A stretch of 64,000 bases of DNA from positions 88,559 through 152,558 of the forward strand of contig MKVQ01000016.1 of NCBI GenBank assembly GCA_001899635.1, read 5' to 3'. The stretch is from Myxococcales bacterium 68-20. Lineage in GTDB: Bacteria; Myxococcota_A; Polyangia; Polyangiales; Polyangiaceae. How positions within the stretch are numbered: position 1 is the first letter of the stretch; the number at the start of each line of letters is the position of its first letter. This document shows, piece by piece, positions 3,929 to 52,180 of the stretch. The notes below the pieces were generated by a model. The model searched no databases. It was not told the origin of the DNA and worked only from the letters and a program-made list of their open reading frames with translations. A program made the translations under genes and the position numbers.

Positions 3929-5376
3929 GGGAGCTTCACCTCCACCGGCTGGAGCACGCTTCCTTTCGGAAGTCCGGCGCCGAGCTGGCCGTAGAAGTTG
4001 CTTCCCCAGCAGTACACTTTGCCATTCGTCAGGATTGCACACGTCGAATAAGGCATGACCTTCACCTCGGCTGCCGGAGCCGGGAGACCGACGACCTGGA
4101 CGGGTTCGAGCGCGAACTGCTTCGTGCCGTTCCCCGCCTGGCCGGCATTGTTGAGTCCCCAGCAGTACACTGCGCCGCTCACCGACGTTGCGCACCAGCG
4201 ACGCCTGTCGAGATACGAAACGTTGTTCTCCCTCACGGACACCGATTGCGACGTTGCGATGCGCGTGATCGGCTCGGGAGTGTCGACCGCGATCGGCAGC
4301 GCACGTGCCAACGAGCCCGCGTTGTCGACATCGTTGCCGCCCCAGCACCAGCCGATCCCGTTCGCGACGGCGCACGCCTGATCGGTAACGGTGTCGATCA
4401 TCGAGACGTGGTCGAGCGCCACCTTCGCGGGTACCCCGCTGTAGTTGAGCGCGGTCGGGCGTCCAATGCTGCCGTTGTAACCCCAGCTCTTGAGCGTACC
4501 GTCGTCGTCGAGCACGAAGGTCGCGACCCCGAGGGCGATGTCCTTGGCTCCGAAGGCGCGCTCGATCGTCTGCGGCTGAGCGTTGAGCTCCGACCGCGAG
4601 ACGCCGACGCCGAGCTGCAGGTAGGAGTTCGAGCCCCAGCAGACCACGCTCCGATCGCGGAGGATGGCGCACCCGGCGCCGTCGTAGCTGCTGCTGCTGA
4701 ACGCGACCTTCGTCGCGGGACCAGGCAGCGGCAGCCGAACGGGCGTCGCTTCCACCGTCTGCGTCGACGCCTCGCTCTGGAGGAATGGGCCTCGTCCCCA
4801 GCAGAAGGCCGAGCCATCGCTGTCGACCGCGCACGTGTGGTCGAGCGCCGTGACCTTCGACAGTCCCGACACGCGCACTGGAACCGGACTGTAGCCGCTC
4901 GTGGCGGGGCGCCCCAGCTGCCCCTCTGCGTTCGCTCCCCAGCATGCCACGGTGCCGTCGTGGAGCAGCGCGCAATAGCCCTCGTCGTTCAGAATGGGGG
5001 AGGAGGACGTCGTGGTGGTCGTCGAGAGCGCGATCGCGCAGGGGGGCTCCTTGCACTCGATCGGCAGCGGCGCGCTGCCTTTGACCACGACATCCGCGAT
5101 GCCGGCGTCGATGACGTCTTCTCGATCGGCCTCGGGAGCGGCATCCGCCGAGCCGTCCGCGTCGCGAGGGTGGGGCTCTCGCGCGTCGCCGTCGCTGCTC
5201 GAGCAGCTCGTGCTCACGGCGACCACGGTCGCGAGGCTCGTGACGAGCGCGAGCAGCGCGGGACCGCGCGGGACGAATGGGCGACGCGTTCGCCGAGCAG
5301 CATCGGCGTCGCGTGGACACGGTTCAGCGACGCTGGACCGAGCCTCCGCTTCAAGGAGTCGTCTTGTGGTACGCAT
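3925..5376 (-). CDS. RCC1-repeat lipoprotein (module A)
   Basis: Repeated VYCWGxNxxGQLG / VCWGSNSYLQLG motifs; lipobox-like VSTSC; start chosen at MRTTRRLLEAEAR. Confidence 0.85.
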   Translation of the reverse strand: MRTTRRLLEAEARSSVAEPCPRDADAARRTRRPFVPRGPALLALVTSLATVVAVSTSCSSSDGDAREPHPRDADGSADAAPEADREDVIDAGIADVVVKGSAPLPIECKEPPCAIALSTTTTTSSSPILNDEGYCALLHDGTVACWGANAEGQLGRPATSGYSPVPVRVSGLSKVTALDHTCAVDSDGSAFCWGRGPFLQSEASTQTVEATPVRLPLPGPATKVAFSSSSYDGAGCAILRDRSVVCWGSNSYLQLGVGVSRSELNAQPQTIERAFGAKDIALGVATFVLDDDGTLKSWGYNGSIGRPTALNYSGVPAKVALDHVSMIDTVTDQACAVANGIGWCWGGNDVDNAGSLARALPIAVDTPEPITRIATSQSVSVRENNVSYLDRRRWCATSVSGAVYCWGLNNAGQAGNGTKQFALEPVQVVGLPAPAAEVKVMPYSTCAILTNGKVYCWGSNFYGQLGAGLPKGSVLQPVEVKLP

Positions 5377-6670
5377 GGCGGGCTCCGATTGCCCAGAGGT
5401 TTTGGTTCGAGGTGCCGCGGATCCTGTAGAACGGCGCATTGACCTGCGCGCCGCTGCGCGAGAGCGTCGAGACGGAGAACGTGCCGTCCTCGCTCTCGCG
5501 GAGAACGAGCCCCCACGATGTGAACCACGTCTCGCCGTCACCTCGCCAGAGCGCGCTCGCTCGCCTCAAGTAGGAGGCGGCCATGCTGTCGGCGATCTTC
5601 ACTGGGACGAGCGACTGTTCGAACGAATATCCATCGTCCGTGACGCGAATCGTCGTCGCGTAGGCGTCCTCGAATGAAGTGCCCTTCACTCGGTTGTAAA
5701 GCGCGACGTATTCGGTCGTCGACACCGGAGCGATGTCGACGAGCCACCCGCCTTTCCCTGGGCCGCCGATGAAGAGCGTCCCCGGACGTTCGGCACACGG
5801 CGTGTTGAAGTTGGTCGAGACGACGCCGTCGGCGACGCGCTCCCAGCCGGCAGCCGACTTCCGGACGACGAGCGGGCAGCTGAGGTACCCCCGAACGCGA
5901 GCGCCGACGAACCAGACGTCGTTCGGACCGCTCCCGTGGACGGACGCAAAGAAGATGTGCTCGTTGTCTGCCTCGAGATCGTCGGCGACGTTGACCGCGG
6001 CGAAGCTACCGCTGGCCGGATCACGGTGGAAGATCGTGTTGCTGTAGTACGCATAGACGTCTTCGGCGCCCGTTCCCCAGACGCCGAGCGTCGTGATCGG
6101 CTGCCCACCGCCGTACACATCAATCGGATTCCCGTGACTATCCGTGTGGCCGGCGATGTTGTCCGGGAGGGCCTGCTTCGTCCACGTCCACGTGCCACCG
6201 GAGCGTTTTCCGTGAAAGACGTGCGACGGTCCGACGGTGAAGTACACCTCGTCGGCGTTCGGGGCGTAGATGCGACCAGCGAACGTGCCGATGGGCGGCT
6301 CATTCTGCGTGCCATCGTCGATGTACTGCCACGTGTTCGTCGCCTTCGTCCACTCGAGGACTTTGATGCCCTCGATCCGGCTCTCGGCGATCGCGAAGGC
6401 CACCTCCTCGAAGGGCGCGATGTCACGGAAGACGAGGTCTTCGTCCGGGAAGCCGGTAATGCACCACCCGGCGGGGCTGCAGTCGGGAAGACGACTATCG
6501 GGGACGTCGACGTCGCTGTCTTCATCGCCGCCATCGTCATCACCGCTGTCGGGGACCTCCGACGGCGGCGGCGGATCGGTGCCGACCGAAGGTGCGTCTT
6601 CCGAGCGCGCGCAGGCAGAGGCGATCGCGACCGATGCAATGGCGGACGCGAGGACGATGATCGTTCTCAT
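5351..6670 (-). CDS. Beta-propeller-like lipoprotein, propeller 1 (module A)
   Basis: MRTIIVLASAIASVAIASAC lipobox; GWCITGFPDEDLVFRDI..VLEWTKATNTWQYIDD; shares layout with 46001..47278. Confidence 0.75.
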   Translation of the reverse strand: MRTIIVLASAIASVAIASACARSEDAPSVGTDPPPPSEVPDSGDDDGGDEDSDVDVPDSRLPDCSPAGWCITGFPDEDLVFRDIAPFEEVAFAIAESRIEGIKVLEWTKATNTWQYIDDGTQNEPPIGTFAGRIYAPNADEVYFTVGPSHVFHGKRSGGTWTWTKQALPDNIAGHTDSHGNPIDVYGGGQPITTLGVWGTGAEDVYAYYSNTIFHRDPASGSFAAVNVADDLEADNEHIFFASVHGSGPNDVWFVGARVRGYLSCPLVVRKSAAGWERVADGVVSTNFNTPCAERPGTLFIGGPGKGGWLVDIAPVSTTEYVALYNRVKGTSFEDAYATTIRVTDDGYSFEQSLVPVKIADSMAASYLRRASALWRGDGETWFTSWGLVLRESEDGTFSVSTLSRSGAQVNAPFYRIRGTSNQNLWAIGARHAYHKTTP

Positions 6671-7863
6671 GGTTTTCCTCCGAGCGACAACAGCGCTCCT
6701 CGTCCGGCGATCCAGACCTTTCCCGGCGACGGGATCCAGATGCGCTCGAGCCGCGGGCGTCGTCCGCCGAGGCCGGCGACCTTCACGCGCCTCCAGGCGG
6801 TGCCGTCGTAGTGAAAGACGGTGCCCTCGTCTCCGGCGATCCAGATGTCGCTCGGCGACGAGCCGGCGATCACGCGGAGGTGCTGCTTCGTCGGCACTTC
6901 GTCGTAGGTCTCGAAGAAGTGTGGATCCCCGCGCCAGCGACGCACCGTGCCGGTCGAGCCGACGGCCCAGACGTCGTTCGGCCCGGCGGCCCAGACGCTC
7001 TCGAGCGCGACGAGCGTGTCCGTCTCGAAGGCGGACAGCGTCGGCTCGTCGGCCTCGGCGTTCGTGACGCGGAACGCGGCACCTCGCGGCCCGACGGCCC
7101 AGACCTCGTCGGCGGAGCGACCGTGGATTCCATAGACCACCCCGCACGGGACGGTCGACCCGCACTTGTCGAGCGTCGCCGGCGTGAGGGCGAAGCTTCC
7201 GTCGGCGGCCCGCCGCAATCGCCAGAGGCCGCCACGGCGCTGCGTCGTCGCGCCGATCCAGAGTGACGTCGACTCCGCGTGAGCCCACGACGTGTAGACG
7301 CGCCCTTCGGCCCAGGCTGGATGAAGCTTCGCAGAGCCGAAGAGCGACCAACCACCAGCGGATGGAGCTCCCGCGTCGGTATCGAGCCTGCGCGTGTACA
7401 AGCGCTTCGGATTCTCGAAGGCGATCTCGGCCTCGCCGCGTACCCAGAGCGCGAGGAACGAATACTGCGTGTCCGTCACGGACGGCTTCCAGGACGTGCC
7501 ATCGAAGTGTGCGGCCGCGCCGGCGGAACCGACCAGCCATGCATCGGTCGGCGACCGGCCCGCGATCGCTCGAACGTGAGTGCGCACATCCAACATCTCC
7601 GGCGTCGCGACTGCGCCGAAGAGGGGACTTTCGCAGAGCGCGTCGTCGGAGCACTCGTCCGGGTAGTACTCGCAGTCGTCGGCGCAGACCGAGGCGTCTT
7701 CGCCGGTCTCTGCGTCACCACCTGCGTCGGGCTCAGCCGACGGCAAAGGCGTGCTCGCGTCGTCCGAGAGAGAGGTGGGCGTCTCACCGTCGGTCGCGCA
7801 TGCTGCCAGTATGGCGAGCGCGCACACAGTCCCGGTGACGGCAATGAACCAGGTAGTCTTCAT
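6667..7863 (-). CDS. Beta-propeller-like lipoprotein, propeller 2 with SxxDVWxVG motifs (module A)
   Basis: MKTTWFIAVTGTVCALAILAACATDG lipobox; GPNDVWAVGSTGTVRRW, SPSDIWIAGDEGTVFHYDGTAW repeats. Confidence 0.8.
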   Translation of the reverse strand: MKTTWFIAVTGTVCALAILAACATDGETPTSLSDDASTPLPSAEPDAGGDAETGEDASVCADDCEYYPDECSDDALCESPLFGAVATPEMLDVRTHVRAIAGRSPTDAWLVGSAGAAAHFDGTSWKPSVTDTQYSFLALWVRGEAEIAFENPKRLYTRRLDTDAGAPSAGGWSLFGSAKLHPAWAEGRVYTSWAHAESTSLWIGATTQRRGGLWRLRRAADGSFALTPATLDKCGSTVPCGVVYGIHGRSADEVWAVGPRGAAFRVTNAEADEPTLSAFETDTLVALESVWAAGPNDVWAVGSTGTVRRWRGDPHFFETYDEVPTKQHLRVIAGSSPSDIWIAGDEGTVFHYDGTAWRRVKVAGLGGRRPRLERIWIPSPGKVWIAGRGALLSLGGKP

Positions 7864-9110
7864 CGCGGCGGTCCTCCAGCATCCCGAAGCTCGTCGCACG
7901 GCTCGACCATGCATTGACCGTTGACGCATGCCTGACCGGCGATGCCGTCACAGACGACCCCGCACCCACCGCAGTTCTTCGGATCGGATGAAAGGTTGGT
8001 CTCGCAACCGTCATCGCGGCTGCCGTTGCAGTCGCCCCAGCCGGAGTTGCACGACCAGTCGCAACTTCCGTGGACGCAAGCCGCGATGGCGTGCGGCGCG
8101 TCGCGGGGACAAGGGGCCCCGCACGCGCCGCAGTGGTCCGGGTCCGAAGTGAGATCGCGGCAGTTGCCCATTCTCTCGACCTCGACGCCGCCTTGGGTCA
8201 CGGTAGCCCCGCAGAACGTCGTTCCCTTGGGGCACATGCACGCCGGGATGGCCCCGGCGATGCCCAGTGCCATCAGATCGCACGTCATGCCGTCCAGGCA
8301 TCGATTTCCGCACGTTCCGCAGTTGTCGTCGTTGTTACTGAGGTTGGTCTCGCAGCCGTTGTTTGGATTGAGGTCACAATCGCCCCAGCCGGACTTGCAT
8401 TTCAGCTTTCCGCACGCGCTCTCGAAGCAGCCGAAGTACGTGTTCGGCTGCGCCTCGCGGGTCCCGTCACCTTCGGGCGGACAGGCGTTGCCGCACGCAC
8501 CGCAGTTCTTGTCATCGTGGGACGGCTCGAGGCATTCTCCGAGGTCGGGATTGCCGAAGAGCCCTCCGCAGTAGAGCTCGCCCGGCTTGCAGCCACACTG
8601 AAAATCAGAAGTAAGAAGCCCACGGTCGATACACGGCTTGTCTGCGGGGCATTTATTCCCGCAGTATCCGCAATTGTCATTACTAAGAGGCTTCGCCTCA
8701 CAGCCGTTGTCCGGAACGCCGTCGCAGTCGAGCTCAGTCGCGCTGTTGCAGCTCAAGACGCAGCGGCCGTCGGCGCACATGGAGTTTTTCGACGGGCACT
8801 TGTTCCCGCATTCGCCGCAGTTGTTCAGATCCGTGAGGAGATCGACATCGCAGAGGAACTGCGAGGTCGGACACGTAGTGTGGCCCGGGGGACACCGGTT
8901 CGACGGGCAATAGGACCTGAGGTCGTTTTCTTCCCCGGTGACCGCGGCGTCAGCCTCCGGAACGACGAAGACGTTTCCGCCGTCGGACGGAATCTCTTCG
9001 CCGACACGAACCGACTGCGAACAACCCGAAGGAGCGGCAGCGGATATACAAAGAAGCAGAACCGCGCCTACCGCAGCGGCCTTGCCATTCAATCGATCAA
9101 TCCTCGTCAC
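7860..9110 (-). CDS. Cys-rich NCGxCG-repeat lipoprotein (module A)
   Basis: GTG start; signal ending AAPSGC; repeated NNCGECGNKCP.., DDNCGTCGNRC.., SGWGDCNGSRDDGCETNL. Confidence 0.8.
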   Translation of the reverse strand: MTRIDRLNGKAAAVGAVLLLCISAAAPSGCSQSVRVGEEIPSDGGNVFVVPEADAAVTGEENDLRSYCPSNRCPPGHTTCPTSQFLCDVDLLTDLNNCGECGNKCPSKNSMCADGRCVLSCNSATELDCDGVPDNGCEAKPLSNDNCGYCGNKCPADKPCIDRGLLTSDFQCGCKPGELYCGGLFGNPDLGECLEPSHDDKNCGACGNACPPEGDGTREAQPNTYFGCFESACGKLKCKSGWGDCDLNPNNGCETNLSNNDDNCGTCGNRCLDGMTCDLMALGIAGAIPACMCPKGTTFCGATVTQGGVEVERMGNCRDLTSDPDHCGACGAPCPRDAPHAIAACVHGSCDWSCNSGWGDCNGSRDDGCETNLSSDPKNCGGCGVVCDGIAGQACVNGQCMVEPCDELRDAGGPPR

Positions 9111-9898
9111 GGTGAACCTCCGACGAGTGCGTCGAGACGGGTGAGATGAGCCGAGCTCGGATACCGAGCGCGAAAGGCGTCGGCTCGCGCGCGTGATTCG
9201 CCCCTTCGTCCGAGCCGGACGAGCGCGTCGATCGCGACGATTTCGCGCTCCTGGTAGAGCGCTCCATGCGGAAATCGCAATGGATGGCCGTTGGCGAGCT
9301 CCAGCGCCTGCGCCGGATCCGACTTGAGCGCGGCGCGCGCGCGACGCAGATAGCTCACTTCGGTCTCGCTCTTTTCGGCGACGGCGGGCTCGCCCGGAAG
9401 CTGACTCGGGGGAGCGGGCTCCACGGGCAACGTCGGCTCCACAGGCAATGCGGGCTCCGCCGGCAATGCGGGCTCCTTCGATGGCCCCGTGAGCTCGCGC
9501 GGAGCGACGACGCGAACGGGCGGACGTGTCGTCGGCAGGAGCGTGGGCTCGTGCGTCGAAAGACGAGCGGGGCGAGTCGGCTCGTTCGCCAACGTCACGC
9601 GTTCGGATGCGACGACCGAACGACGCTCCTCCTTCACGCTCGCGACGCGATCGTCCTTCGACGAGATTTCGAAGACGCTGATGCCGAGCACCGCAAGCGA
9701 CGCACCGATCAACGGAAGGATTCGATGGATCCCGCGCGTCGCCTTCGCAGCCGCGTAGCCCTTCGATGCCGGCGAAGCGTTTTCGAGCCAGTTGTCGAAC
9801 CGATCTTCGAGCCGACGAAGCTGCGCATCGTCGGGATCGCTCCGCCCCGAACGCAGGAGCCGCTCGAGCGCCTGTTCCTCTTCTTGGCTGGTGCTCAT
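9107..9898 (-). CDS. Single-TM protein with TPR-like C-terminus, candidate anti-sigma factor (module A)
   Basis: Hydrophobic segment ILPLIGASLAVLGISVF near residue 60, Pro-rich linker, helical-repeat C-terminus; overlaps the ECF sigma gene by ATGA. Confidence 0.65.
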   Translation of the reverse strand: MSTSQEEEQALERLLRSGRSDPDDAQLRRLEDRFDNWLENASPASKGYAAAKATRGIHRILPLIGASLAVLGISVFEISSKDDRVASVKEERRSVVASERVTLANEPTRPARLSTHEPTLLPTTRPPVRVVAPRELTGPSKEPALPAEPALPVEPTLPVEPAPPSQLPGEPAVAEKSETEVSYLRRARAALKSDPAQALELANGHPLRFPHGALYQEREIVAIDALVRLGRRGESRARADAFRARYPSSAHLTRLDALVGGSP

Positions 9899-10485
9899 TT
9901 CGATTCCTTCGACATTCTGGAGAGCATCGCGAGCGCTTGTTTCTTCGCGGCGGCGAGGCGCGAGTACCCAGTCGCCACGGGACAGCCGACGATCTCTGCG
10001 ATCTCGGTCATCTCGAGGTGCTCGAGCTCGTGGAGGACGAAGACCGCGCGCTTGTCCTCGTCCAGACGAGCGATGACCTGCGCGAGCTGCCGACGCGCAT
10101 GGAGACGGTCGGCCTCCCCGCTGTCCGCCGACGCCGCGAGCTCGGGGACTTCATCGACGAGGACCTCGCGGTGGATGCGAAAACGCCGCCGGTAGCCGGC
10201 GGCTACGCGGACGGAGATCCCGTAGATCCACGCTCGAATCGAGCTCGACCGTTCGAGCTGCGCGAGCTTTTGAAAGATGATGATGAAGACCTCTTGGCTG
10301 ACATCCTCGAGGTCCCGCTCCGCCACGCCCTGATACCGAAGCGTCCGCCACACGAAGGCGCCGTACTGTCGAACGATCTGGCGAGCGGCGGCGTGAGCTT
10401 GCATGGCGACAGCGTCGACCGCGTCCGCGTCGACCGCCGATGCGTCCCCGAGATCGGGAACAGTCGCTCCTGTAGCCCAGGTCAT
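9895..10485 (-). CDS. RNA polymerase ECF-type sigma factor (module A)
   Basis: Region 2-like VWRTLRYQGVAERDLEDVSQEVFIIIFQKL and region 4-like LDEDKRAVFVLHELEHLEMTEIAEIVGCPVATGYSRLAAAKKQ. Confidence 0.92.
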   Translation of the reverse strand: MTWATGATVPDLGDASAVDADAVDAVAMQAHAAARQIVRQYGAFVWRTLRYQGVAERDLEDVSQEVFIIIFQKLAQLERSSSIRAWIYGISVRVAAGYRRRFRIHREVLVDEVPELAASADSGEADRLHARRQLAQVIARLDEDKRAVFVLHELEHLEMTEIAEIVGCPVATGYSRLAAAKKQALAMLSRMSKESK

Positions 10486-10519
10486 TCCCGGGAGCAGTGC
10501 GATGACGGTGCGGTCACTC

Positions 10520-11494
10520 TCAAAAAAAATCGAGCGCGACGCCGAAAGAGCCGATCCCCGTCACCGGTGAGCCGCGGTACAGGGACCGCTCGACCCGACG
10601 GTCGTCGAGGACCGTGAAGTCGCTCCGCTGAGGAGTCGCCGCGAAGCCGATCGCGGCGAAGGCGTGGACGCGCTCCCCGAGCCTGTACGTTGCGCTCGCC
10701 TGCGCCAGGCCCCCGAACCTGACCGCCATGCCGCTCCGATCTTTGCCGAAGCCGCTTCCCCACGCGACGGCGAGCTCAGCCTGAGGTCCGATGCACGCCG
10801 TCATCACGAAGCGTCCGGCCGGGATCGTCAGCGGACATACGCCGAGGCCAAACATCGTCCGGAAGAGCCGCACGGTTCGCCCTTCGGGCACCGACTCACC
10901 TTGGCCCCAGAAGAACGCATCGGCGATCAGAGGCCAGAAGCTCCCCGGCACGAGAACGACGGACGCATGAGCTCCGCCTCCTACGCCTCCGGAGGAGCTC
11001 ATGTCGACGGCCGCGCTCGGACCGAGCTTCCCGGTCGAGTGCCAGGGCACCCGACGCCTCTCTCGTTCGTCCGCCAGCTCCTCCGGAGTCGGCGGAAGAT
11101 CGATCATGAGGGCCAGCGCGAGGACGAGTGACTCCGATGCCTCCTCGCAGCTCTCGCTGTCGATCGTGAGGTCACGGCGCCCGAGATGGCGGCCGCTCGG
11201 CGTCGCAAGCGCGATCCGTGCAAGCCACTGAGGCGCAGCATCGGCTCTCTGGATCTCCACGCGAAGGACGCGATCGGCGTGCGCTTGGTCGGCGAATGCA
11301 CGACGCGCGAGCGAGCGCTCGACGTCCTCGATCAGCTCCGACTCCGAAGGACACGCATCTGCCCCCCGGCCCCGCGTCCACTCGAGAAGCACCAGCGATC
11401 GCGGTTGCTCTTCGGCGCCTTCAGCGATCCCCGTCGTGGCGAGACACGTGAGCGGAAGAGCAAGAAGGCACGACCACCACTGCCGTGCACGCAT
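10520..11494 (-). CDS. Exported beta-barrel-like protein, first gene of module A
   Basis: MRARQWWSCLLALPLTCLATTGIAEGA signal peptide; N-terminal ..CPSESELIEDVE..; C-terminus ..GSFGVALDFF ends in Phe as in many outer-membrane barrels. Confidence 0.65.
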   Translation of the reverse strand: MRARQWWSCLLALPLTCLATTGIAEGAEEQPRSLVLLEWTRGRGADACPSESELIEDVERSLARRAFADQAHADRVLRVEIQRADAAPQWLARIALATPSGRHLGRRDLTIDSESCEEASESLVLALALMIDLPPTPEELADERERRRVPWHSTGKLGPSAAVDMSSSGGVGGGAHASVVLVPGSFWPLIADAFFWGQGESVPEGRTVRLFRTMFGLGVCPLTIPAGRFVMTACIGPQAELAVAWGSGFGKDRSGMAVRFGGLAQASATYRLGERVHAFAAIGFAATPQRSDFTVLDDRRVERSLYRGSPVTGIGSFGVALDFF

Positions 11495-24384: not shown

Positions 24385-25631
24385 GGAAAGACGACGACTT
24401 GCGGCTCGGGATGGCGTCGCTCGTCACGACTGCCACGCCCGAGCTGGCCACGGGTGTTGTCGCCCCAGCACAGCACGCTGCCATCGCTGCGCAGGACACA
24501 CGACGAAGTATTGCCGACGGCGACCGCGACGACGGGCGGGCCTGCGGGAAGCATGACGCGCGTCGGCGCATAGACGCCTTGCTTGGCGACGAGCCCGAGC
24601 TCGCCGCGCGCATTCACGCCGCCCCAGCAGTACACGTCGCTCGTCGTGGTTCGCGCGCACGTATGCTGGTCGGCAGTGGCGACGTCGACCACGGCGATCG
24701 ATGCCGGCAACGCGACGGGCGTGGGCGTGACCTCGTCGCGCCAAAGCCCGCTCCCTAGCTGGCCCCTGCCCCCTCGCCCCCAGCAAGAGAGCTCCCCCGT
24801 CCCGGTGCGCGCACACGCATGACCGCTTCCGACAGCAAGGACCTCAGCGTCGATCAGGCCGAAGACTTGCCTCGGCTCGTCACCCCCATACTGGTGCGCG
24901 AGCTGAGGGCCGTACCCCCAGCTGACCAACCTGCCATCCGCGAGGGCGACCAGGCCGACCTCCTGTCCAAAGCGAACAGCGAGCGGCTTGGCACCTTGCA
25001 CCTGGCGGAGCCCCTGCCCGAGCGACCAGGACTCGCCCCAGCAGACCAGCTCGGACGAGGCGTCGAGGATGCAGCGAGTGATGCCGTCGGGGCCCACGAA
25101 CACGCGCCGTGCCGCTGGGATGTCGGGCACAGTCGTTGGCGTGCGCTGCCAGTCGCTCCAGCACGAGACGGCTCCGCTGGCAGAGACGACGCACGTTCCA
25201 GTGTTCGCCGCCGCGAGATCCACGACGGAGCCGAGCTCGAGCAGGGGCACTGGCTTGCCTGGCTCTGCTTCGGCGCCGCCATCGGCAGGCAGCGGGAGCG
25301 CGTTCGTGTCGCCCCAGCAGCGCACCGAGTGATCGTGCATCGTCGCGCAGTAGTGCTCGGCGCCGGCTGCCAGCGCGATCACGCAGGAGGGCCCGCCGCA
25401 CTGGACCGGGATCGGAGCGGCGTCGAAGGGAGCGGTCGCATCGACGACGTCGCTCGCCGCATCCGGGCTCTCGGTGACTTCGCCGGCGTCAGAGGCGTCC
25501 GCGGCATCCGCATCCGGAGCCGGCGCCTCGATCGGTCCGACGAACGATTCGTTGGAACAGCCCGCGAACGGCAACGTCGCGAGCAGCCCTGCGAGCGGTG
25601 ACACGAGGAGAATGAATCGCGACCGCGTCAT
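24381..25631 (-). CDS. RCC1-repeat lipoprotein (module B)
   Basis: VYCWGGVNARGELGLV, VLCWGDNTRGQLGRG repeats; lipobox PFAGC. Confidence 0.85.
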   Translation of the reverse strand: MTRSRFILLVSPLAGLLATLPFAGCSNESFVGPIEAPAPDADAADASDAGEVTESPDAASDVVDATAPFDAAPIPVQCGGPSCVIALAAGAEHYCATMHDHSVRCWGDTNALPLPADGGAEAEPGKPVPLLELGSVVDLAAANTGTCVVSASGAVSCWSDWQRTPTTVPDIPAARRVFVGPDGITRCILDASSELVCWGESWSLGQGLRQVQGAKPLAVRFGQEVGLVALADGRLVSWGYGPQLAHQYGGDEPRQVFGLIDAEVLAVGSGHACARTGTGELSCWGRGGRGQLGSGLWRDEVTPTPVALPASIAVVDVATADQHTCARTTTSDVYCWGGVNARGELGLVAKQGVYAPTRVMLPAGPPVVAVAVGNTSSCVLRSDGSVLCWGDNTRGQLGRGSRDERRHPEPQVVVFP

Positions 25632-28095: not shown

Positions 28096-29309
28096 TTCGT
28101 CGGCTCCTCACAAGGCTTGGTCAGGCATTGCCCGTTGACACACGGCTGGCCCGCCGCGATATCGCACTGGATCCCGCATCCGCCGCAATTGGTCGGGTCG
28201 CTCAGAACTTTGGCCTCGCAACCATCGAGGGGATTCTGATTGCAGTCGGAGAGCCCCTCGACACATTCGACCGTGCAGCGGCCTTTTACGCAGGCATTCT
28301 TGGTCCCGGTGTTGGAAATCGCTCCGTTGCACTGGTATCCGCACGCCCCGCAGTTGAACGGATCGTTGTCGAGATCGACACACGTGGTGTCGCATCGGGT
28401 CAGGCCGTCATCGCAGTTGCACGCCGGCGGCTTGTTGAAGGCCGTCGCGAAGCACAGCTTCCCGTCGGCACAGACATTCCCGCAGGCCCCGCAGTTGTTC
28501 CGATCGAGGAACGGACGACCATGCTCGGGATCGGGCGCGCCCAGGTCGACCTCACAGCCGTCGGCGAGGTCGCCATTGCAGTTGGCCCATGTGTGGTTGT
28601 TGTCTTTGACACACTTGAGCTCGCCGCATGTCCCGCCCCCGCAGCCGTAGTACATGTTCGGAGGCGGCTCGGGCAGGCCGGCATCGGACGGATTGGTGAG
28701 ACAATTGAAACGACACGCGCCGCAATGCCTGTCATCGCTGTTCAGGTCGACGCATCCGTCATTGCCGCAAGTGACCCGACCGGGAGGGCACCCACCACAA
28801 TAGAAGTTCAGACAGCGAACTCCGGCCGGGCAGACGATGCCGCATCCGCCGCAGTTGTTGGGGTCCTCACGGAAATACGCTTCACAGCCGTCGTCGACGA
28901 TGCCATTGCAATCGCCGTAGCCGTCATTGCAGCCGGTGCCGCGGCATTTACCTTGATGGCAGGCGACCGTCATGGCCCTGCCGTTGTCGCAAGTGTTGCC
29001 GCACTCGCCACAGTTGTTCTTGTCGTTGGCGAGGTCCGTACCGCAGCGGAACGTCGGCAGCGAACCGTCGTCCCCAGGGCATGTCGCGTACGGGTAGGTG
29101 CACTCGGTCGCCACGCATTGGTTCATCGGGTCGGTCGGAAGCGTCGGGGTGGACGCCTCGGACGCATCGGGCGCCTCGAAGATGGGACCAGGAGCGGCCG
29201 CGTCGGGCAGTCCGCCGCCGACGACGAACGCGCGTTCGCTGCTCGAGCACGCGACGGCGAGCACCGCGCCGAACACGAAGAGCGTCGAGCCGAGTCGAAT
29301 GTGCTTCAT
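28092..29309 (-). CDS. Cys-rich NCGxCG-repeat lipoprotein (module B)
   Basis: MKHIRLGSTLFVFGAVLAVACSSS; NNCGECGNTC, NNCGGCGIVC, NGIVDDGCEAYF, NPLDGCEAKVLSDPTNCGGCGIQC. Confidence 0.8.
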   Translation of the reverse strand: MKHIRLGSTLFVFGAVLAVACSSSERAFVVGGGLPDAAAPGPIFEAPDASEASTPTLPTDPMNQCVATECTYPYATCPGDDGSLPTFRCGTDLANDKNNCGECGNTCDNGRAMTVACHQGKCRGTGCNDGYGDCNGIVDDGCEAYFREDPNNCGGCGIVCPAGVRCLNFYCGGCPPGRVTCGNDGCVDLNSDDRHCGACRFNCLTNPSDAGLPEPPPNMYYGCGGGTCGELKCVKDNNHTWANCNGDLADGCEVDLGAPDPEHGRPFLDRNNCGACGNVCADGKLCFATAFNKPPACNCDDGLTRCDTTCVDLDNDPFNCGACGYQCNGAISNTGTKNACVKGRCTVECVEGLSDCNQNPLDGCEAKVLSDPTNCGGCGIQCDIAAGQPCVNGQCLTKPCEEPTK

Positions 29310-30109
29310 CGGGTCATCCCTACTGCTGCGCGCACCGGCTCGGCATAGGGGGAGCCAGGTCGCTTGGTCAGGAACTGTTCGGCCAACGCACGCGCTTCGC
29401 TCGTGCGTCCCAGCGCTGCCAGCGCGCGCACTTCGAGCGAGTCGGCCTCGTCGGCGAAGGATTGAGCCGAGTACTCGCGACGGTACGCCTTGACCTCCAC
29501 GAGAGTATCGGACGGCTTGCCCGAAGCGAGCAGACCGCGTGCGCGATCGATGCGCGCGAGCTCATCGTCGAGGCTCGTGTTCGAACGCTCCGCCTTGGCT
29601 GCAAGCGAGGAGGGAGCGAAGCGAGCGCTCGAGCCACCTGGAGCCGGCGACGGAGCACGTCTGGGCTCGCGGGGCGACGGCGGCAGCGCGGAGACATCGA
29701 TCGACGGCAGCGCGGAAGCCGGCTCCTGGACGTCGTTCGCCGGAGGGATGGGGGAGACCGCCGCGATCGGCGCCACGCGAGGCGTCGGCGCGGGCAATTC
29801 GACGTGCGCCGACGGCGCACCTCCGCGGGTGGATGGGGCGCGAGCCCCGAGCTCGTCCGAGGAGGCGTGCCATCCGAACGCGGCGAGGCCGACGGCGGCC
29901 GCCAACCCCGTGTAGACGACGGCGGCGCGCAGCGATCCGAAGCGCTGGGTGAGCGTGGGCATCATGGGCGGCGCGGCCTCGCCGAATCGCGCCATCAGCG
30001 TCGCGCTCTGCGCGGCGGGGTTCGGATGGACGTCTTCGTCTGCGGCGCGCAGCATCGACGCGATCTCTTCAGGAAGCTCGTCATCGAGCAGCGGACTGGG
30101 GTCCTTCAT
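29306..30109 (-). CDS. Single-TM protein with TPR-like C-terminus, candidate anti-sigma factor (module B)
   Basis: Start MKDPSPLLDDELPEEIASMLRAADED; TM AAVVYTGLAAAVGLAAFG; C-terminal RARGLLASGKPSDTLVEVKAYRREY..ALAALGRTSEARALAEQFL. Confidence 0.65.
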   Translation of the reverse strand: MKDPSPLLDDELPEEIASMLRAADEDVHPNPAAQSATLMARFGEAAPPMMPTLTQRFGSLRAAVVYTGLAAAVGLAAFGWHASSDELGARAPSTRGGAPSAHVELPAPTPRVAPIAAVSPIPPANDVQEPASALPSIDVSALPPSPREPRRAPSPAPGGSSARFAPSSLAAKAERSNTSLDDELARIDRARGLLASGKPSDTLVEVKAYRREYSAQSFADEADSLEVRALAALGRTSEARALAEQFLTKRPGSPYAEPVRAAVGMTR

Positions 30110-30696
30110 CGGTGGTTTTCCTGCGCGCCCTTTCGAGCGGCGGCCTGCATAAAGAGCTCTCGTGCACGGCGCAGACGCGACGCGACGGTTCCGACGGGAA
30201 GCTCGAGCAGCTCGGCGATCTGCACCGTGCTGAGGCGTTCGAGCTCGAACAAAATGAAGATGGCGCGCGGCTCTTCCGGGATCTTCTCGAGCATGCGCTG
30301 CAGGTCCTGACGCGCTTCCGACTGCGAGATCGCCTGCTCGGGCGTAATCCGAGGATCGATCTGTCGCTTCAGGAGCTCGTCGTCGTGGACTTCGCGCCGC
30401 CGCCGGATCGACCGACGCGCGTGCGAGGCGACGTACATGCACGCGCGAAACAGGAACCCACGCGCCGATGTGATGGAGGCGAGCCGCTTCGAGGCCTCGA
30501 GATAGACCTCCTGCACCGCGTCCTCGAGGTCGGCGTCGGGCACGCCGAGCCGGCGAAGGCTCCGCCAGACGAACTCGTGGTGCTCCAGGATGAGGCCCTC
30601 GACGGTGAGATTCGGGTCAGCCATCGTCGCGGTCACCGGCGCTTGCCCAGCACCGGCGGGGAGCTCGTGAAGCTGAAGAGCACGCGAGTTCGACAT
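30106..30696 (-). CDS. RNA polymerase ECF-type sigma factor (module B)
   Basis: FVWRSLRRLGVPDADLEDAVQEVYLEASKRL...IPEEPRAIFILFELERLSTVQIAELLELPVGTVASRLRRARELF. Confidence 0.93.
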   Translation of the reverse strand: MSNSRALQLHELPAGAGQAPVTATMADPNLTVEGLILEHHEFVWRSLRRLGVPDADLEDAVQEVYLEASKRLASITSARGFLFRACMYVASHARRSIRRRREVHDDELLKRQIDPRITPEQAISQSEARQDLQRMLEKIPEEPRAIFILFELERLSTVQIAELLELPVGTVASRLRRARELFMQAAARKGAQENHR

Positions 30697-30771: not shown

Positions 30772-31863
30772 TCACTTCCAGCGTGTCGACACGGCAATGC
30801 CGAGCTGGCCGTCGACCGTGACCGGTGGCACTCGATGAGCTTGGCGGACAGGATCGATCAGCGTGAACTCCGGACGCTGAAAGGGGCTGAAGAGACCGAG
30901 CGCAAGCTCCACCCCGACGGGATCCAGGATGGTCACGCGGGTCCTCGCGATGAGGCCCCCCGCAGACCAGCCCGACTCCGCACGACCGCTCCGCGGCAAG
31001 CCTGAGCTTGCCACGGCGAGCTGACCGACCTCGAAGGCGCCGCAGAGAGAGGTGTGCGTGCGCCACCAGACGGTCCCGCCGCAGACTTCGGCACGTGCCG
31101 TTCGCAGCCGATAATCAATCTCGCCGCCACCGACGAGGGGACGGTCGAAGTCCGAGAATCCCCACGAGAGGCGCAGCGCCGGGACGATCGGGGTCGAGGC
31201 GAAGTGGCGAGACCACTCGGCCGACACGCGAGCGCCGAACGCGTCGTCGCCAGCTCTGCTGTATTGGGCTTGAATCCCCGAATCGAACTGCCAAACGCTC
31301 GGAGCAGCGGATTTCGCTCGGCGCGTCGGCGCCACACTCGGGCGTGTGGACTCCGGTCGTGGTGTTGAACGAGGCCGATCGAGCTGCCGCGGCGTGGCTG
31401 GCGTGGGTCGAGGGGCCTCGTCTTCCTTCGGAACAGAGGTCTGCGGAGCCGACTCGGAACGTTCGGCAAGAGCGAGGGCCACGAAGACGGCGAGTGAGCG
31501 CACGACGGTCGCGCAATCGGCGCTCCGCACCTGACGCGTTCCCACCGATCCCTCCTGAGCGACCGTGAGCTGACCTTCGAAGCCGCCATCCCGCTTTTCG
31601 ATGTGGACCGACAAGCGGCGTGGGTCGTCCGCGCCATCTCCGCTCCCACCTTGCGGAGCAGCTACCCGCTTGGCGAGCTCGGCAGCAAATGCCGACGCGT
31701 CGGGGCACTCGGGCGGGGCCGTGTATGGGACCTCCATTGGTGCCGTGTCCGCAGCAGCAACCGCAGCGTGGCCCATGCAGCAAGCAATCGTGCACAGCGC
31801 AACGAACCGCGCCCCCGCAGCTCTGATGCGCGCGTATGTGTCGCCAGCGTGTCGCCGATCCAT
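30772..31863 (-). CDS. Exported beta-barrel-like protein, first gene of module B
   Basis: MDRRHAGDTYARIRAAGARFVALCTIACCMGHAAVAAADTAPMEVPYTAPPECPDASAFAAELAKRV..; C-terminus LGIAVSTRWK. Confidence 0.6.
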   Translation of the reverse strand: MDRRHAGDTYARIRAAGARFVALCTIACCMGHAAVAAADTAPMEVPYTAPPECPDASAFAAELAKRVAAPQGGSGDGADDPRRLSVHIEKRDGGFEGQLTVAQEGSVGTRQVRSADCATVVRSLAVFVALALAERSESAPQTSVPKEDEAPRPTPATPRQLDRPRSTPRPESTRPSVAPTRRAKSAAPSVWQFDSGIQAQYSRAGDDAFGARVSAEWSRHFASTPIVPALRLSWGFSDFDRPLVGGGEIDYRLRTARAEVCGGTVWWRTHTSLCGAFEVGQLAVASSGLPRSGRAESGWSAGGLIARTRVTILDPVGVELALGLFSPFQRPEFTLIDPVRQAHRVPPVTVDGQLGIAVSTRWK

Positions 31864-32434
31864 GCGGGACCAGCACCACGCATCATTCGAGGATCGTCGA
31901 GAGCCGGAAATTCGAAGCATGTCTGCGGCGTCGGCGATATCGCACCCGTAAGGCGCCCCCGGTGCGCTGATCGTGAAGCGCACCGCAGTCTAGTGCGTCG
32001 GCGACGTCTTCCTCGCTGTCGACGTCTCCGAGCGCACGACCGTAGGGCAAAGACGCGCCATCTGGAACCGCGGCGGTGGGCCAGCCACAGCCGCTTGCGC
32101 GCATGCCTCTACTACCTCGACGAGGAAAGGAGGTAGTTGGCTCAGGGCTTGCACACCATCGGTTTCCCGCGAGCCGGCGCCCGTGGCCGTTGAGTCCTCT
32201 CGCTCGGGCAACGGTGTCGAGCGCTCTCGCGGCGCGATGCGTGGGCAGCACCGCGGGCGGTCACGAGGCGAGCGCCATCCCGACTTCGAGACGAGCCGGT
32301 GTGCGCGCCCTCGCCGTGCGGTTCGATGAGACGGACCTCCGCTACTGCAGAGCCTCGTACTGACCCACGGTGCCGCTCCCTGTCGCGCAATCATGCTCGA
32401 GCGTGAGGTCCCCCCGCACGCGAGGCTTGCTAGG

Positions 32435-47278: not shown

Positions 47279-48483
47279 GGTTTTCCTCCAAGGGAGAGGA
47301 CGACTCCGTGGCCGCCGATCCAGACGTGACCAGGGCCGGCCGTCCAGACGGTGACGAGGTCAGGACGACGCTCGCCGAGTCCGGCGATCTTCACCCGCGA
47401 CCAACGCGCGCCGTCGTAGTGAAGGACGACCGCATCTTGGCCCACCGCCCAGATGTCGGAGGGGGACGAGCCCCACACGGCGTTGAGATGCGCTCCTGCC
47501 GGGACGTCTGAGACGACCTCCCAGCGGAGAGGATCGCCTGTGTAGTGCCGGATGGTTCCGTCGAATCCGACGGCCCATACGTCGGACGCGGAGGCCGCCC
47601 ATACACCGTACAGCGCGTTGCGCGTTTGGCTGTCGTAGGCCTTGATGCTCGGCGAATCGCCGCCCGCGCCGGTCACACGCACCGCCTTGCCGTTCATCCC
47701 TACGGCCCAGAAGTCGTCCGCGGAAGCGCCGTGAAGATCGTTCAACGTGCCGGTCGTGGTCGCCGCGATCTCGCCCGTGAACGAGCCCGGATCACCCACG
47801 CGCAAGCGAATGAGACCGGAGGGGGTCGACGCCGCGTTCGTCAATGGCCCCGTCGACAACCAGAACCAGTCTTCGCCGGGCGACGCCCACCCGGACGTGA
47901 CGGTCAGCGACGCGGGATTGATACGTGGCGCGGCGATGTTCAATGCACTGTTGTCCGTCCAGTCCCCGCCGGCGTCCGGCGGATCGACGAGGCCGCGCGA
48001 ATAGATCTGATTGAGCCCTTCGATCCCGACTTCATAGTCGGGCCCGAGCCAGAGCGTTCGCAGCGTTGACATGCGACCCTTCGGCGACGGGCCGCCGATG
48101 GGGAGCGCCACTCGCACCCACGACGTCCCGTCGAAGTGGGTGAGCGCCCCGAGCGCGCCGACGACCCAGACGTCGCTCGCGGAGCGGCCGCGAATGAGGT
48201 GGACGGTCGTGCGCACGTCGAACGAATCCGGTCCGCCGTTGGGCTTGGCGGGATCGAACAGGCCGTTGGGGCAGAGGACGTCGTCCGTGCACACCGGCGG
48301 GAAAAACTCGCAGTCGCGCGAGCACGGAGCGTCGGCAGGCGCATCCGAAGCATCGCTGGCTGTGATGACGATCTGGGATGCGTCGGGCGCGGCGAGGGAG
48401 CCCGGCTCGGTGTCGGCGCACGCGCTGAACGTGAAAGCACACGCGGCAACGATCGCCGCTCCTGCAAGGATTCTTGCTCTCAT
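47275..48483 (-). CDS. Beta-propeller-like lipoprotein, propeller 2 (module C)
   Basis: MRARILAGAAIVAACAFTFSACAD; SASDVWVVGALGALTHFDGTSW, SASDVWAVGFDGTIRHY, SPSDIWAVGQDAVVLHYDGARW. Confidence 0.8.
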   Translation of the reverse strand: MRARILAGAAIVAACAFTFSACADTEPGSLAAPDASQIVITASDASDAPADAPCSRDCEFFPPVCTDDVLCPNGLFDPAKPNGGPDSFDVRTTVHLIRGRSASDVWVVGALGALTHFDGTSWVRVALPIGGPSPKGRMSTLRTLWLGPDYEVGIEGLNQIYSRGLVDPPDAGGDWTDNSALNIAAPRINPASLTVTSGWASPGEDWFWLSTGPLTNAASTPSGLIRLRVGDPGSFTGEIAATTTGTLNDLHGASADDFWAVGMNGKAVRVTGAGGDSPSIKAYDSQTRNALYGVWAASASDVWAVGFDGTIRHYTGDPLRWEVVSDVPAGAHLNAVWGSSPSDIWAVGQDAVVLHYDGARWSRVKIAGLGERRPDLVTVWTAGPGHVWIGGHGVVLSLGGKP

Positions 48484-49691
48484 TGAGCGACCTCGCCCGA
48501 GCACGGTTCGACCACACATCTGCCGCCCGCACATGCTTGGCCGGCGGCGATATCGCAGGTGATCCCGCAGCCGCCGCAGTTCTGCGGATCGCTGAAGGTA
48601 TCGACCTCGCAATCATCGTCGACGTTGCCGTTGCAGTCGGCCCAGCGTCCCGTGCACTCGAGCTTGCATGTGCCGTACTGACAGACGCCTTTGCTGCGTA
48701 GCGTGACGCCGGGACACGCTAGTCCGCAACCGCCGCAGTTCTTCGCATTCGAGGCAAAATCGGCGCAGACGCCGAAGAAAGGTTCGGTGGTGGAGATTCC
48801 GCAAAAGTTCTGACCGGGAGGGCACCTGCACCCGAGGCCGACGTCCTCGAAGTCGGTCGAAAAGACGCAATCCATGCCGATTGCGCGGCAGTTGTCCCCG
48901 CAGGCCACGCAATTTTCGTGGCTCCCCAGGCGTACCTCGCATCCGTCGGACTCGGGTTGACCGAGGTCCATGTTGCAGTCGGCGTATCCGTCTTCACACT
49001 TGAGGCTGCCGCACTGCCCGAGACCGCATCCGTAGTAGGCGTTCGGCGGAGCGGGAGCGGCTCCCGCTCCGCCCGTGCGGTCGCATGCGTTGTCACACAC
49101 TCCACAATGCTCGTCGCTGAACCTCAAATCCTGGCACGTCGGGTAGGCGTTCGCGCAGTACGACTTGGGTTCAGTACATCCGCACGTTGGCGTGGAACCG
49201 CTGAATTCACTACATGGTTTCGTTTCAGGACACTTGTTCCCGCACGCGCCGCAACTGGCATTCTCGAGGTCGCTAGTTTCGCATCCAGTCTCGATGAGAC
49301 CATCGCAGTCCAGGTAGGGTCTCTCGCATCGCATGACGCAGCGACCTTCGAGGCAATCGAAGACCGCACCGGCTCCTTTTTGGGGGCAGGCCGCGCCGCA
49401 TGCGCCGCAGTTCTTCGGATCCGACCGGAGGTCCACGTCGCAAAGGAACTTCGAGTTAGGACACGTCGTAAACCCCGTGGGGCACTTGTTCGAAGCGCAG
49501 TAATTCGTCAGCTCCCGCGTCGAGGCTTCCGTCGATGCGTCGGGCGTGGGCGCGAGCGCCGGGGCGCGTTCGCAGAAGCCGTCGTCGCAGTCCTCGCCGA
49601 TGGCAAGGTCGCGGCTGCTCACGCACGCGGATAGCGCAGCGAGAGGGAGCAAGGCGATGACCCAGGAAAAGGGGGATGGGGATCGTTTCAT
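48480..49691 (-). CDS. Cys-rich NCGxCG-repeat lipoprotein (module C)
   Basis: MKRSPSPFSWVIALLPLAALSACVSS; KNCGACGAACP, ASCGACGNKCPETKPC, NCGGCGITCDIAAGQACAGGRC. Confidence 0.8.
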   Translation of the reverse strand: MKRSPSPFSWVIALLPLAALSACVSSRDLAIGEDCDDGFCERAPALAPTPDASTEASTRELTNYCASNKCPTGFTTCPNSKFLCDVDLRSDPKNCGACGAACPQKGAGAVFDCLEGRCVMRCERPYLDCDGLIETGCETSDLENASCGACGNKCPETKPCSEFSGSTPTCGCTEPKSYCANAYPTCQDLRFSDEHCGVCDNACDRTGGAGAAPAPPNAYYGCGLGQCGSLKCEDGYADCNMDLGQPESDGCEVRLGSHENCVACGDNCRAIGMDCVFSTDFEDVGLGCRCPPGQNFCGISTTEPFFGVCADFASNAKNCGGCGLACPGVTLRSKGVCQYGTCKLECTGRWADCNGNVDDDCEVDTFSDPQNCGGCGITCDIAAGQACAGGRCVVEPCSGEVAQ

Positions 49692-50449
49692 TCTCCGGCC
49701 TCTGGCGCGGGCTCGCCCGCGCAGCTCATTTCGACGCGGCGGGTGAGCGCGCCCTTCGTGCGCCCCTCGAGAAAGGCGGTTGCCTCCCGAACGGCATCAG
49801 CGCGGCGCCCCAGGCTGCAGAGGACAACGACGCGCTCGGCCGCGCGCTCGTTCGCGAGCCAGCCACGCGGGAAGGCGCGCGCGTGCTCGTCGAGGAGCGC
49901 GAGCGCACCGGCGCCGTCACCGTTCTTGAGGGCATGTCGGGCGTCCGCGAGGAGACGAGCTTCGCGCTCGAGCGTGTCGCTCGACGAAGGTGTGAGCTCG
50001 GATGCCGACGTCGACGCCGCCACCTTCGTCGCGGCCTTCTCCGTCCGCTGCACGGCCGCGGCGGTCGGAAGCGCATGGACGGAGATGGATGGGACGGCAG
50101 GAGCGCCCTCTCCTTCACGTGGAGCGTCGATCTCCCGCGGCGCAGTGGACGGTAGGGCGATCGTCGTCGGGGCGCTCGCAGGCGGCGGCTCGCGCAGCGT
50201 GATCGCGGCGGTGATCGCCAGAGCCATGCACGAGAGTCCGACGAGCAGGATGCTCTTCCCTTCCCAGGCCGCGGACGCTCGACCGACACTCGCCGTCGAA
50301 GGTCGGGCTGACGACGGGGTGCCGTCGAGCCCCTGCCCGAGTGAGGTCTGGAGCTTCGCGAACAGGCGCTCTGCCTGAGCCTGCGTCGGCCCGTACTCGT
50401 CCGCGAGCGGAGCCAGGAGCAGCGCCTTCTTCTCGGGTTCGACTTTCAC
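49688..50449 (-). CDS. Single-TM protein with TPR-like C-terminus, candidate anti-sigma factor (module C)
   Basis: TM SILLVGLSCMALAITAAITL; C-terminal EREARLLADARHALKNGDGAGALALLDEHARAFP; ATGA overlap with sigma gene. Confidence 0.65.
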   Translation of the reverse strand: MKVEPEKKALLLAPLADEYGPTQAQAERLFAKLQTSLGQGLDGTPSSARPSTASVGRASAAWEGKSILLVGLSCMALAITAAITLREPPPASAPTTIALPSTAPREIDAPREGEGAPAVPSISVHALPTAAAVQRTEKAATKVAASTSASELTPSSSDTLEREARLLADARHALKNGDGAGALALLDEHARAFPRGWLANERAAERVVVLCSLGRRADAVREATAFLEGRTKGALTRRVEMSCAGEPAPEAGE

Positions 50450-51105
50450 TTGTACCTCCAGCCGTCGCGAGCGCGATGTCTCGCCATCGCCGCCTCGACG
50501 GCCTCGCGCGCAAGCCGCAGCCTGCTCGAGACCGTGTTCACGTTGATCTCCAGGATCTCGGCGATCTCGATCAAAGGCTTTCCCTCCAGCTCCACCAGCA
50601 CGAGCACGGCTCGCTTCTCGGGATCGAGAGAGTCGAGGATCGCTTCGAGCAGACGCACGGTCTCACTCGTCTCGGCGCTTCTGTCCGGAGCGGCCGCAGG
50701 CGAGGCCGGAAAGGCGTCCAGGTCCATTCCGTCCTCGGTGAGCGCAGACCGCCTTCGAAACGATCGCCGGTGATGCAGGACGACGCGATAGACGGTCGCG
50801 AAGAGCCAGGCGCGCTCGGCCCCGAGCGTCTCGAACGTGGCGCTGCGGCGATGAGCCGTGAAGAACGTCTCCTGGACGACGTCTTCCACCTCGGCGTCCG
50901 TGACGCCGAGGCGACGGGCCGTCTTCCACACGTACGTGAGGTGCGTCCAGTAGAGCTCGGCGAAGCTGCTCGAGGCTCCGGATCTGCCTTCGCTACGCGC
51001 CACGTTCGCGACACCGGATGCGGGAGGAGGGGGGAGCGTCACTGCGTCGGGCACCACTGCCGACGCACGATCAGCGACGACCTCCGCGCTCCAATGAGCA
51101 ACCAT
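50446..51105 (-). CDS. RNA polymerase ECF-type sigma factor (module C)
   Basis: YVWKTARRLGVTDAEVEDVVQETFFTAHRR..LDPEKRAVLVLVELEGKPLIEIAEILEINVNTVSSRLRLAREAV. Confidence 0.93.
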   Translation of the reverse strand: MVAHWSAEVVADRASAVVPDAVTLPPPPASGVANVARSEGRSGASSSFAELYWTHLTYVWKTARRLGVTDAEVEDVVQETFFTAHRRSATFETLGAERAWLFATVYRVVLHHRRSFRRRSALTEDGMDLDAFPASPAAAPDRSAETSETVRLLEAILDSLDPEKRAVLVLVELEGKPLIEIAEILEINVNTVSSRLRLAREAVEAAMARHRARDGWRYK

Positions 51106-51151: not shown

Positions 51152-52180
51152 TCAGGGAATGACGAATTCGGCGCCCAAGCTGAACCTTAAGGCAAGCGAT
51201 GGAGGATCGTGCAAGCGCACGTCGTCGTTCCTCGTGGCAAGGATGAAGGTCGGAGGTCCGACGGGGAGAAGCAGATCGGTCCGCGCATACAGCCCGAGCC
51301 ATCGTGCGACGCGCGCTTCGACCCGAGCTCCGAGCACGGCGGTCAACCACCCTCCCGACGACGTCCACGGTCTCCGAATGCCGAAGCCTTGAAGCTGGAC
51401 GTACGTCGCCTCGATGTTCGCGCACGGCCCGAGCGCGAAGACGCCGAGCGGCACCATGTATCCGGCGAACGCGCCCACGTCGATCATGTCGAACGACGCG
51501 CCGGCGGGCCCATCGAAGTACCGGCGCTGACGAGACGAGATCGTCCCCAGCGCTCCGACACGAAGGCGGTGAAGGCGGAGCGCCGCAGTCGCGACGACGC
51601 CCGTGCTCGCCTGAGGCAGTGGCCCCGACGCGACCGAGGCGCCGAGCCCGAATGCGAACTGCGTGGCCGGTGGCCCGGACGGTAGCGCGTGCGGCCGAGG
51701 CGTCTTCTCCGGTTGGCCGACGTTCGGCGGTGCGGCCGATGGAGGCGCCTCTGCTGGGGCGAGTGGGGCGCCTGGACCTTGTGGATCAAAGAGCTCCTCC
51801 GCAGAGCCTGCTTCATCGATCCGAGCTGCGTCGCTCGATGGATCGATCACGTAGGCAACGACGACCGCAAACGCCTCGGCGAGCGCCGAACACGAAGCCG
51901 CCTCGACCGTTCGATGCTCCTCGACGTCACCGGTGCGCACGCTCAGCGTGACCTTGAGGCGCCCGTGTGCGCCGCCCTCGACCTTCGCCTCCGCGCGGGT
52001 CGGGGCGGTCTGCGGTCCCCGGACGATCTGCTCGATCCGGCGACGGACGAACGACGACGACGGGCAGCCCTCCGGCGCATCCCACGTGAGCTCGAGCGGG
52101 AGCGGCACAGTCTCCGCCATCGCGCGCCGAGGCGTGGTCGCGATCGCACCGATCGCAAGCAGCGACCACACCTTCGTCAC
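51152..52180 (-). CDS. Exported beta-barrel-like protein, first gene of module C
   Basis: Signal peptide WSLLAIGAIATTPRRAMAE; PLELTWDAPEGCPSSSFVRRRIEQIV; Gly/aromatic alternating C-terminal half, ..SLALRFSLGAEFVIP. Confidence 0.6.
   Translation of the reverse strand: MTKVWSLLAIGAIATTPRRAMAETVPLPLELTWDAPEGCPSSSFVRRRIEQIVRGPQTAPTRAEAKVEGGAHGRLKVTLSVRTGDVEEHRTVEAASCSALAEAFAVVVAYVIDPSSDAARIDEAGSAEELFDPQGPGAPLAPAEAPPSAAPPNVGQPEKTPRPHALPSGPPATQFAFGLGASVASGPLPQASTGVVATAALRLHRLRVGALGTISSRQRRYFDGPAGASFDMIDVGAFAGYMVPLGVFALGPCANIEATYVQLQGFGIRRPWTSSGGWLTAVLGARVEARVARWLGLYARTDLLLPVGPPTFILATRNDDVRLHDPPSLALRFSLGAEFVIP

Follow-up and report, generated by a model that had tools for sequence, protein, structure and literature searches.

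ECF sigma factors paired with a predicted two-helix, membrane-anchored anti-sigma factor carrying a BamD-like periplasmic domain

Results

Three sigma-partner modules in one genomic window

We analysed a stretch of 64,000 nucleotides of the Myxococcales bacterium 68-20 genome (hereafter the window), which encodes three modules named A, B and C. In each module the gene of an ECF sigma factor is followed by the gene of a membrane protein (the partner), whose 3' end overlaps by 4 nt the gene of a Cys-rich protein. A barrel-like protein is encoded upstream of each sigma factor. All modules are on the minus strand of the window and comprise the following genes.

9895..10485, minus strand: module A ECF sigma factor, 196 aa (Pfam Sigma70_r4_2, 2.8e-11; region 2, 9.6e-7)
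9107..9898, minus strand: module A partner, predicted anti-sigma factor, 263 aa, ATGA overlap of 4 nt with the sigma gene
7860..9110, minus strand: module A Cys-rich (STIG1/MXAN_6577-like) predicted lipoprotein (Pfam PF04885, 3.4e-7)
10520..11494, minus strand: module A upstream protein with a signal peptide and an N-terminal 'CPs' domain, probably an outer-membrane beta-barrel
30106..30696, minus strand: module B ECF sigma factor (Pfam r4_2, 4.9e-15)
29306..30109, minus strand: module B partner, predicted anti-sigma factor, 267 aa
28092..29309, minus strand: module B Cys-rich predicted lipoprotein (profile match)
30772..31983, minus strand: module B upstream barrel-like gene, paralogue of those of A and C
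50446..51105, minus strand: module C ECF sigma factor (Pfam r4_2, 2.8e-12)
49688..50449, minus strand: module C partner, predicted anti-sigma factor, 253 aa, GTGA overlap
48480..49691, minus strand: module C Cys-rich predicted lipoprotein (profile match)
51152..52180, minus strand: module C upstream barrel-like gene, paralogue of those of A and B

The three sigma factors matched the Pfam profiles of regions 2 and 4 (PF04542 and PF08281) above cut-off, as is typical of ECF sigma factors. The original prediction described an ATGA overlap between sigma and partner genes in all modules. The overlap is indeed 4 nt in all three, and it reads ATGA in A and B, but GTGA in C. The true start of the module B partner is the ATG at 30109; the longer open reading frame, up to 30442, is a GTG extension into the sigma gene. 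The Cys-rich lipoprotein of module A also matched NF041328 (3.7e-17, which is under the cut-off of that model), and the upstream barrel-like protein had no match in Pfam.

Each module heads a long same-strand run of genes encoding secreted-looking proteins (2144-11494, 24381-31983 and 42929-52180 of the window). These include Cys-rich STIG1-like, propeller-like and RCC1-repeat proteins, and in the run of module C also an IgGFc-binding protein (42929-44740; PF17517, 3.9e-93). Module C is adjoined by a gene on the plus strand (52884-54410) whose translation reads as a Ser/Thr protein kinase-like protein with a TM segment and an Ala/Pro-rich tail.

Architecture of the partner protein

The partner had been described as a short N-terminal region, one TM segment, a Pro-rich linker and a TPR-like C-terminus. 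We recovered this layout in all three modules, with a helical bundle at the C-terminus. The partners of B and C have one TM segment each and are 26-29% identical to that of A, whose features are as follows.

9848..9886, minus strand: helix 1, residues 5-17 (AF2), predicted to bind sigma region 4; coupled residues L11, L14 and L15
9779..9829, minus strand: helix 2, residues 24-40 (AF2), predicted to bind sigma regions 2.1/2.2
9668..9730, minus strand: TM segment, about residues 57-77 (hydropathy; AF2 is not confident here)
9362..9667, minus strand: Pro-rich linker, residues 78-179, predicted disordered (AF2 pLDDT mostly 43-73)
9119..9361, minus strand: predicted periplasmic TPR-like, BamD-like bundle, residues 180-260 (AF2 pLDDT about 97; Foldseek)

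The AF2 model of partner A has exactly two N-terminal helices before the disordered region and the TM segment, and five helices at the C-terminus that are modelled with confidence (pLDDT about 97). A hydropathy peak above 1.4, at median residue 64, was found in 97% of the 326 members of the family (see below). The C-terminal bundle forms TPR-type hairpins, and its nearest fold is BamD (Foldseek 3tgo_B, E 4.8e-3, rmsd 2.2 over 84 columns), as is its nearest profile (9pxg_D, 1e-4). Pfam matches to TPR were weak in the window partners (E=0.01 in B, and 0.97, under the cut-off, in A), and 23 and 18 of 88 family members matched TPR_14 and YfiO, respectively.

The linker often carries a motif, [VIL]x[VIL]xxLP, around 45 residues past the TM segment. 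It occurs in 98 of the 326 partners, where 12 are expected from shuffled sequences, e.g., 'IDVSALP' in B and 'ISVHALP' in C of the window, and 'RVEDLP' and similar sequences in the family members L096, L051 and L024. It may serve for cleavage by a protease or for docking.

Copy number and taxonomic distribution

The genome of the window (11.9 Mb, 98% complete) encodes at least 144 ECF sigma factors followed by a homologous partner. A BLAST search with partner C gave 116 matches in this genome, of which 99 lay at most 1200 bp downstream of a same-strand match to sigma region 4 (around 0.9 expected by chance). When sigma factors were picked without reference to the partner, i.e., with PF08281 only, 126 of 147 carried one among the matches listed. 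Together with 182 pairs from relatives, those of this genome (at least 144) made a set of 326, in 259 of which the offset between the two genes is exactly -4. The partner is therefore encoded directly with its sigma factor. With a mean sigma identity of 34%, and a median of 61% to the best paralogue in the same genome, the copies differ too much to result from assembly redundancy. Proteins with an HxxxCxxC motif follow only five of the other sigma factors of this genome, and zf-HC2 has nine matches in the whole genome.

By profile search, 43 of 57 genomes in the order encode the family, and other members of the genus have 0-47 copies each. It was found in 79 of 116 genomes of the class, commonly in 1-20 copies, although three class-level relatives had 30, 46 and 31. 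Across the phylum 43 of 189 genomes encode it; most belong to the same class, and those elsewhere have one to three copies. A search with a single protein found relatives in a Sandaracinaceae MAG and in one other MAG. We infer that the family spans the class Polyangia and is sharply expanded in this genome. Two profile-based locus searches found no conserved stretch, and a third found no relative.

Co-evolution of the partner with both sigma domains

We studied the co-evolution of sigma, partner N-terminus and TPR bundle by mean-field DCA on 324 cognate pairs (Meff 290). In the model of sigma and N-terminus, the top 11 inter-protein couplings (5.1-8.1 MAD) all fell within two coherent patches. 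The first links N-terminal columns 6, 9 and 10, in helix 1, with columns 119, 154, 155 and 158 of sigma4. The second links columns 18, 22, 23, 25, 26, 29 and 33, which have the spacing of a helix and correspond to helix 2, with columns 11, 12, 15, 29 and 33 of sigma 2.1/2.2. The coupled residues of helix 2 in partner A are Q26, L27, R29, L30, R33 and W37, with P22 just ahead of the helix. From the alignment, their counterparts in sigma A are G42, A43, W46, E60 and Q64, and those of helix 1 are F149, A184, L185 and L188. The coupled columns make chemical sense, pairing acidic residues with Arg (D29-R25, D12-R23), Phe with Leu (F119/F154-L10) and Trp with Pro (W15-P18).

Random re-pairing inside genome sets produced couplings of at most 5.4 (12 shuffles). 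When each partner was replaced by that of the nearest sigma factor, a swap that largely preserves phylogeny, the couplings collapsed (from 7.3 to 3.3, and to no more than 3.0 for the others). Of the top 20 couplings, five recurred between independent halves of the data, i.e., this genome and the other genomes. The control block between sigma and TPR showed two isolated couplings of about 6.6-6.7 sd, and it is accordingly the pattern, not any single coupling, that is decisive. The N-terminus was no better than the TPR control at ranking cognate over non-cognate partners, so this ranking does not separate contact from co-inheritance. The evidence that the partner contacts both sigma2 and sigma4 is that of co-evolution.

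In order- and class-level relatives we found nine natural fusions that encode sigma, N-terminus, TM segment and TPR in a single chain, with no Met at the junction (L312, L319, L325, L339, L314, L267, L343, L318 and L327). The AF2 model of L312 has the same two helices (178-189 and 193-206). With a pTM of 0.36, this model bears a weak likeness to the CnrH/CnrY arrangement (TMt 0.47, rmsd 7.3).

Which kind of anti-sigma factor

Given the co-evolution with both sigma domains, the two-helix structure, the natural fusions and the near-universal coupling with sigma genes, the partner is very probably an anti-sigma factor anchored in the membrane, of a minimal type that has two helices at the N-terminus and a BamD-like domain beyond the inner membrane. 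Anti-sigma domains of class I are three-helix bundles with a fourth helix (101 aa on average) that contact sigma4 and sigma2.1/2.2, and about 44% of them lack the zinc motif (PMC7406223). In class II, CnrY binds sigma4 with the first of its two helices and sigma2 with the last (PMC7406223). The AF2 and DCA results place the partner with the latter, with two helices within about 50 residues, the first facing sigma4 and the second sigma2. The best solved relative of the profile of sigma and fusions is CnrH (4cxf_A, 1.6e-28). CnrY and NepR were absent from the matches of the partner profile among PDB sequences; such domains are short and divergent. From the modelled helices and the couplings, the N-terminus would work like that of class II CnrY, which does not imply common descent.

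The suggestion that the partner is a divergent anti-sigma factor is thus strongly supported, with the qualification that its N-terminus is CnrY-like rather than a degenerate zinc or class I domain. The lack of HxxxCxxC on which it partly relied is real (none in the first 110 residues of the 326 partners), but it is a weak argument given the proportion of class I domains without the motif.

We considered other known types. A degenerate zinc anti-sigma factor was rejected on this absence of HxxxCxxC and of any zf-HC2 Pfam match among the partners, even if neither is required of every class I member. The three-helix bundle and helix 4 of class I do not fit the two helices of the AF2 model. A FecR-type protein was rejected since neither partner nor barrel had a Pfam match to FecR or to TonB receptors. 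A TPR sigma factor of the ECF42 type was rejected since the TPR lies past a TM segment and usually in a separate protein.

What the periplasmic domain might sense

The TPR domain had been proposed to sense the lipoproteins or the barrel encoded in the same operon. The Cys-rich lipoprotein gene is directly downstream of the partner in 121 of 141 modules of this genome, and in 33 of 176 modules of relatives. The barrel-like gene is upstream in 77 of 126 and in 45 of 72, respectively. Controlling for sigma and N-terminus, the distances between barrels correlated with those between TPR domains (partial correlation of 0.32, p at its floor of 0.003), whereas those of the Cys-rich proteins did not (0.018, p 0.2). 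Hence, the lipoprotein part of the proposal is not supported. Barrel distances also track sigma itself (0.44), so that the correlation indicates evolutionary linkage rather than contact. DCA showed no coherent patch between TPR and either barrel or Cys-rich protein (Meff about 140). Sensing of the barrel by the TPR domain, as suggested by these sequence comparisons, is a weak lead.

The Cys-rich family was amplified alongside the sigma pair, yet it has diverged with little relation to the pair, as if cargo genes had been exchanged between modules. GAAC-(15-18)-GTC sites were mildly enriched upstream of barrels (19 against 6.9 in shuffled sequences, a crude control, for all loci with room) and possibly reflect ECF autoregulation.

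Discussion

A model for the sigma-partner modules

We propose that every ECF sigma factor has its cognate anti-sigma factor in the adjoining partner, which is bound to the membrane. Helix 1 would pack on sigma region 4 and helix 2 would cover regions 2.1/2.2, as the computations support. The bound sigma factor would then be barred from RNA polymerase and held at the inner membrane. The BamD-like TPR bundle, on its long disordered periplasmic stalk, may receive an envelope signal, to which the product of the upstream gene, a probable outer-membrane barrel, is most likely linked. Release could proceed by regulated intramembrane proteolysis, i.e., a site-1 cut in the stalk and then a site-2 cut of the RseP type, or alternatively by a conformational change that frees sigma. 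The genome does encode M50 homologues of site-2 proteases, which are universal, and their presence is therefore only permissive. The freed sigma factor would transcribe its own translationally coupled operon, which encodes the barrel, the sigma and anti-sigma factors, and surface proteins of the Cys-rich and propeller types. About 144 such channels would operate in parallel in one genome. We regard this explanation as a whole, from a CnrY-like anti-sigma factor to an envelope signal received through the TPR and the release of sigma, as highly likely. A bolder version, in which the BamD-like TPR reads the assembly state of its own operon's barrel (the C-terminal signal of outer-membrane proteins), with about 144 mutually insulated channels in a single cell, seems to us rather improbable.

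The evidence of contact cannot by itself tell inhibition from chaperoning, and the partner might bind sigma mainly as an activator, or as a tether that delivers active sigma at the membrane. The fusions put both proteins in one chain, and PMC7509140 reports dual roles for RskA. However, helix 2 couples to sigma 2.1/2.2, which is the face that binds the beta'-clamp of RNA polymerase (PMC7406223), and a sigma factor bound in this way should not fit the core polymerase. We thus hold an activator or tether to be quite unlikely. It is even harder to believe that the partner is just a periplasmic TPR scaffold of a surface-protein operon, co-inherited with sigma, and that the couplings are a phylogenetic artefact. 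The distances of sigma and TPR do correlate strongly (0.56-0.70), and the TPR ranks partners as well as the N-terminus does. Yet the couplings vanish upon the phylogeny-preserving swap, they form two coherent helical patches that match known anti-sigma interfaces, five of the top 20 recur in independent halves, and sigma-partner fusions exist. Moreover, the partner follows sigma in relatives mostly without a Cys-rich gene.

That same rarity in other genomes bears on the possibility that the partner is an anti-sigma factor whose periplasmic domain senses the adjoining Cys-rich lipoprotein. The position of this gene in most modules of the window's genome, directly downstream and translationally coupled, would suit such a role, but its divergence does not track that of the TPR. 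We give little credit to this possibility and find it more likely that the lipoprotein gene is a target gene. Our preferred reading remains a CnrY-like anti-sigma factor that receives an envelope signal through its TPR.

With this reading, a large set of ECF sigma factors gains a specific predicted inhibitor and a residue-level interface that is open to a few point mutations. Furthermore, a cytoplasm shared by about 144 divergent cognate pairs offers an unusual natural dataset on how paralogous pairs of sigma and anti-sigma factors avoid cross-talk. The two-helix class, of which CnrY and NepR are the main illustrations, may dominate among the anti-sigma factors of this lineage.

Comparison with known systems

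The open literature we searched, which left out the main 2021 ECF classification, held no description of this family. The closest parallel is CnrY/CnrH of Cupriavidus metallidurans, which shares the short two-helix domain without zinc motif, helix 1 on sigma4 and helix 2 on sigma2. Unlike CnrY, the partner has a long Pro-rich stalk and a periplasmic TPR bundle, and we noticed no CnrX-like gene. Class I anti-sigma factors (RseA, RskA, ChrR, RsiW) have the same dual interface on sigma4 and sigma2.1/2.2, whereas the partner has two helices within about 40 residues.

As in FecI/FecR, a sigma factor and a membrane anti-sigma factor are encoded beside the gene of an outer-membrane barrel. Here, the barrel lacks a Pfam match to TonB-dependent receptors, and a TPR bundle makes up the periplasmic part. 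The IutY fusion of sigma and anti-sigma factor parallels the natural fusions of this family (PMC8999054; PMC5411451). In ECF42 a TPR is also linked to an ECF sigma factor, but as an extension of sigma itself with no TM segment (PMC8999054), whereas the TPR described here comes after one. Finally, BamD (YfiO) is a larger outer-membrane lipoprotein, whereas the BamD-like part of the partner is a small bundle on an inner-membrane stalk.
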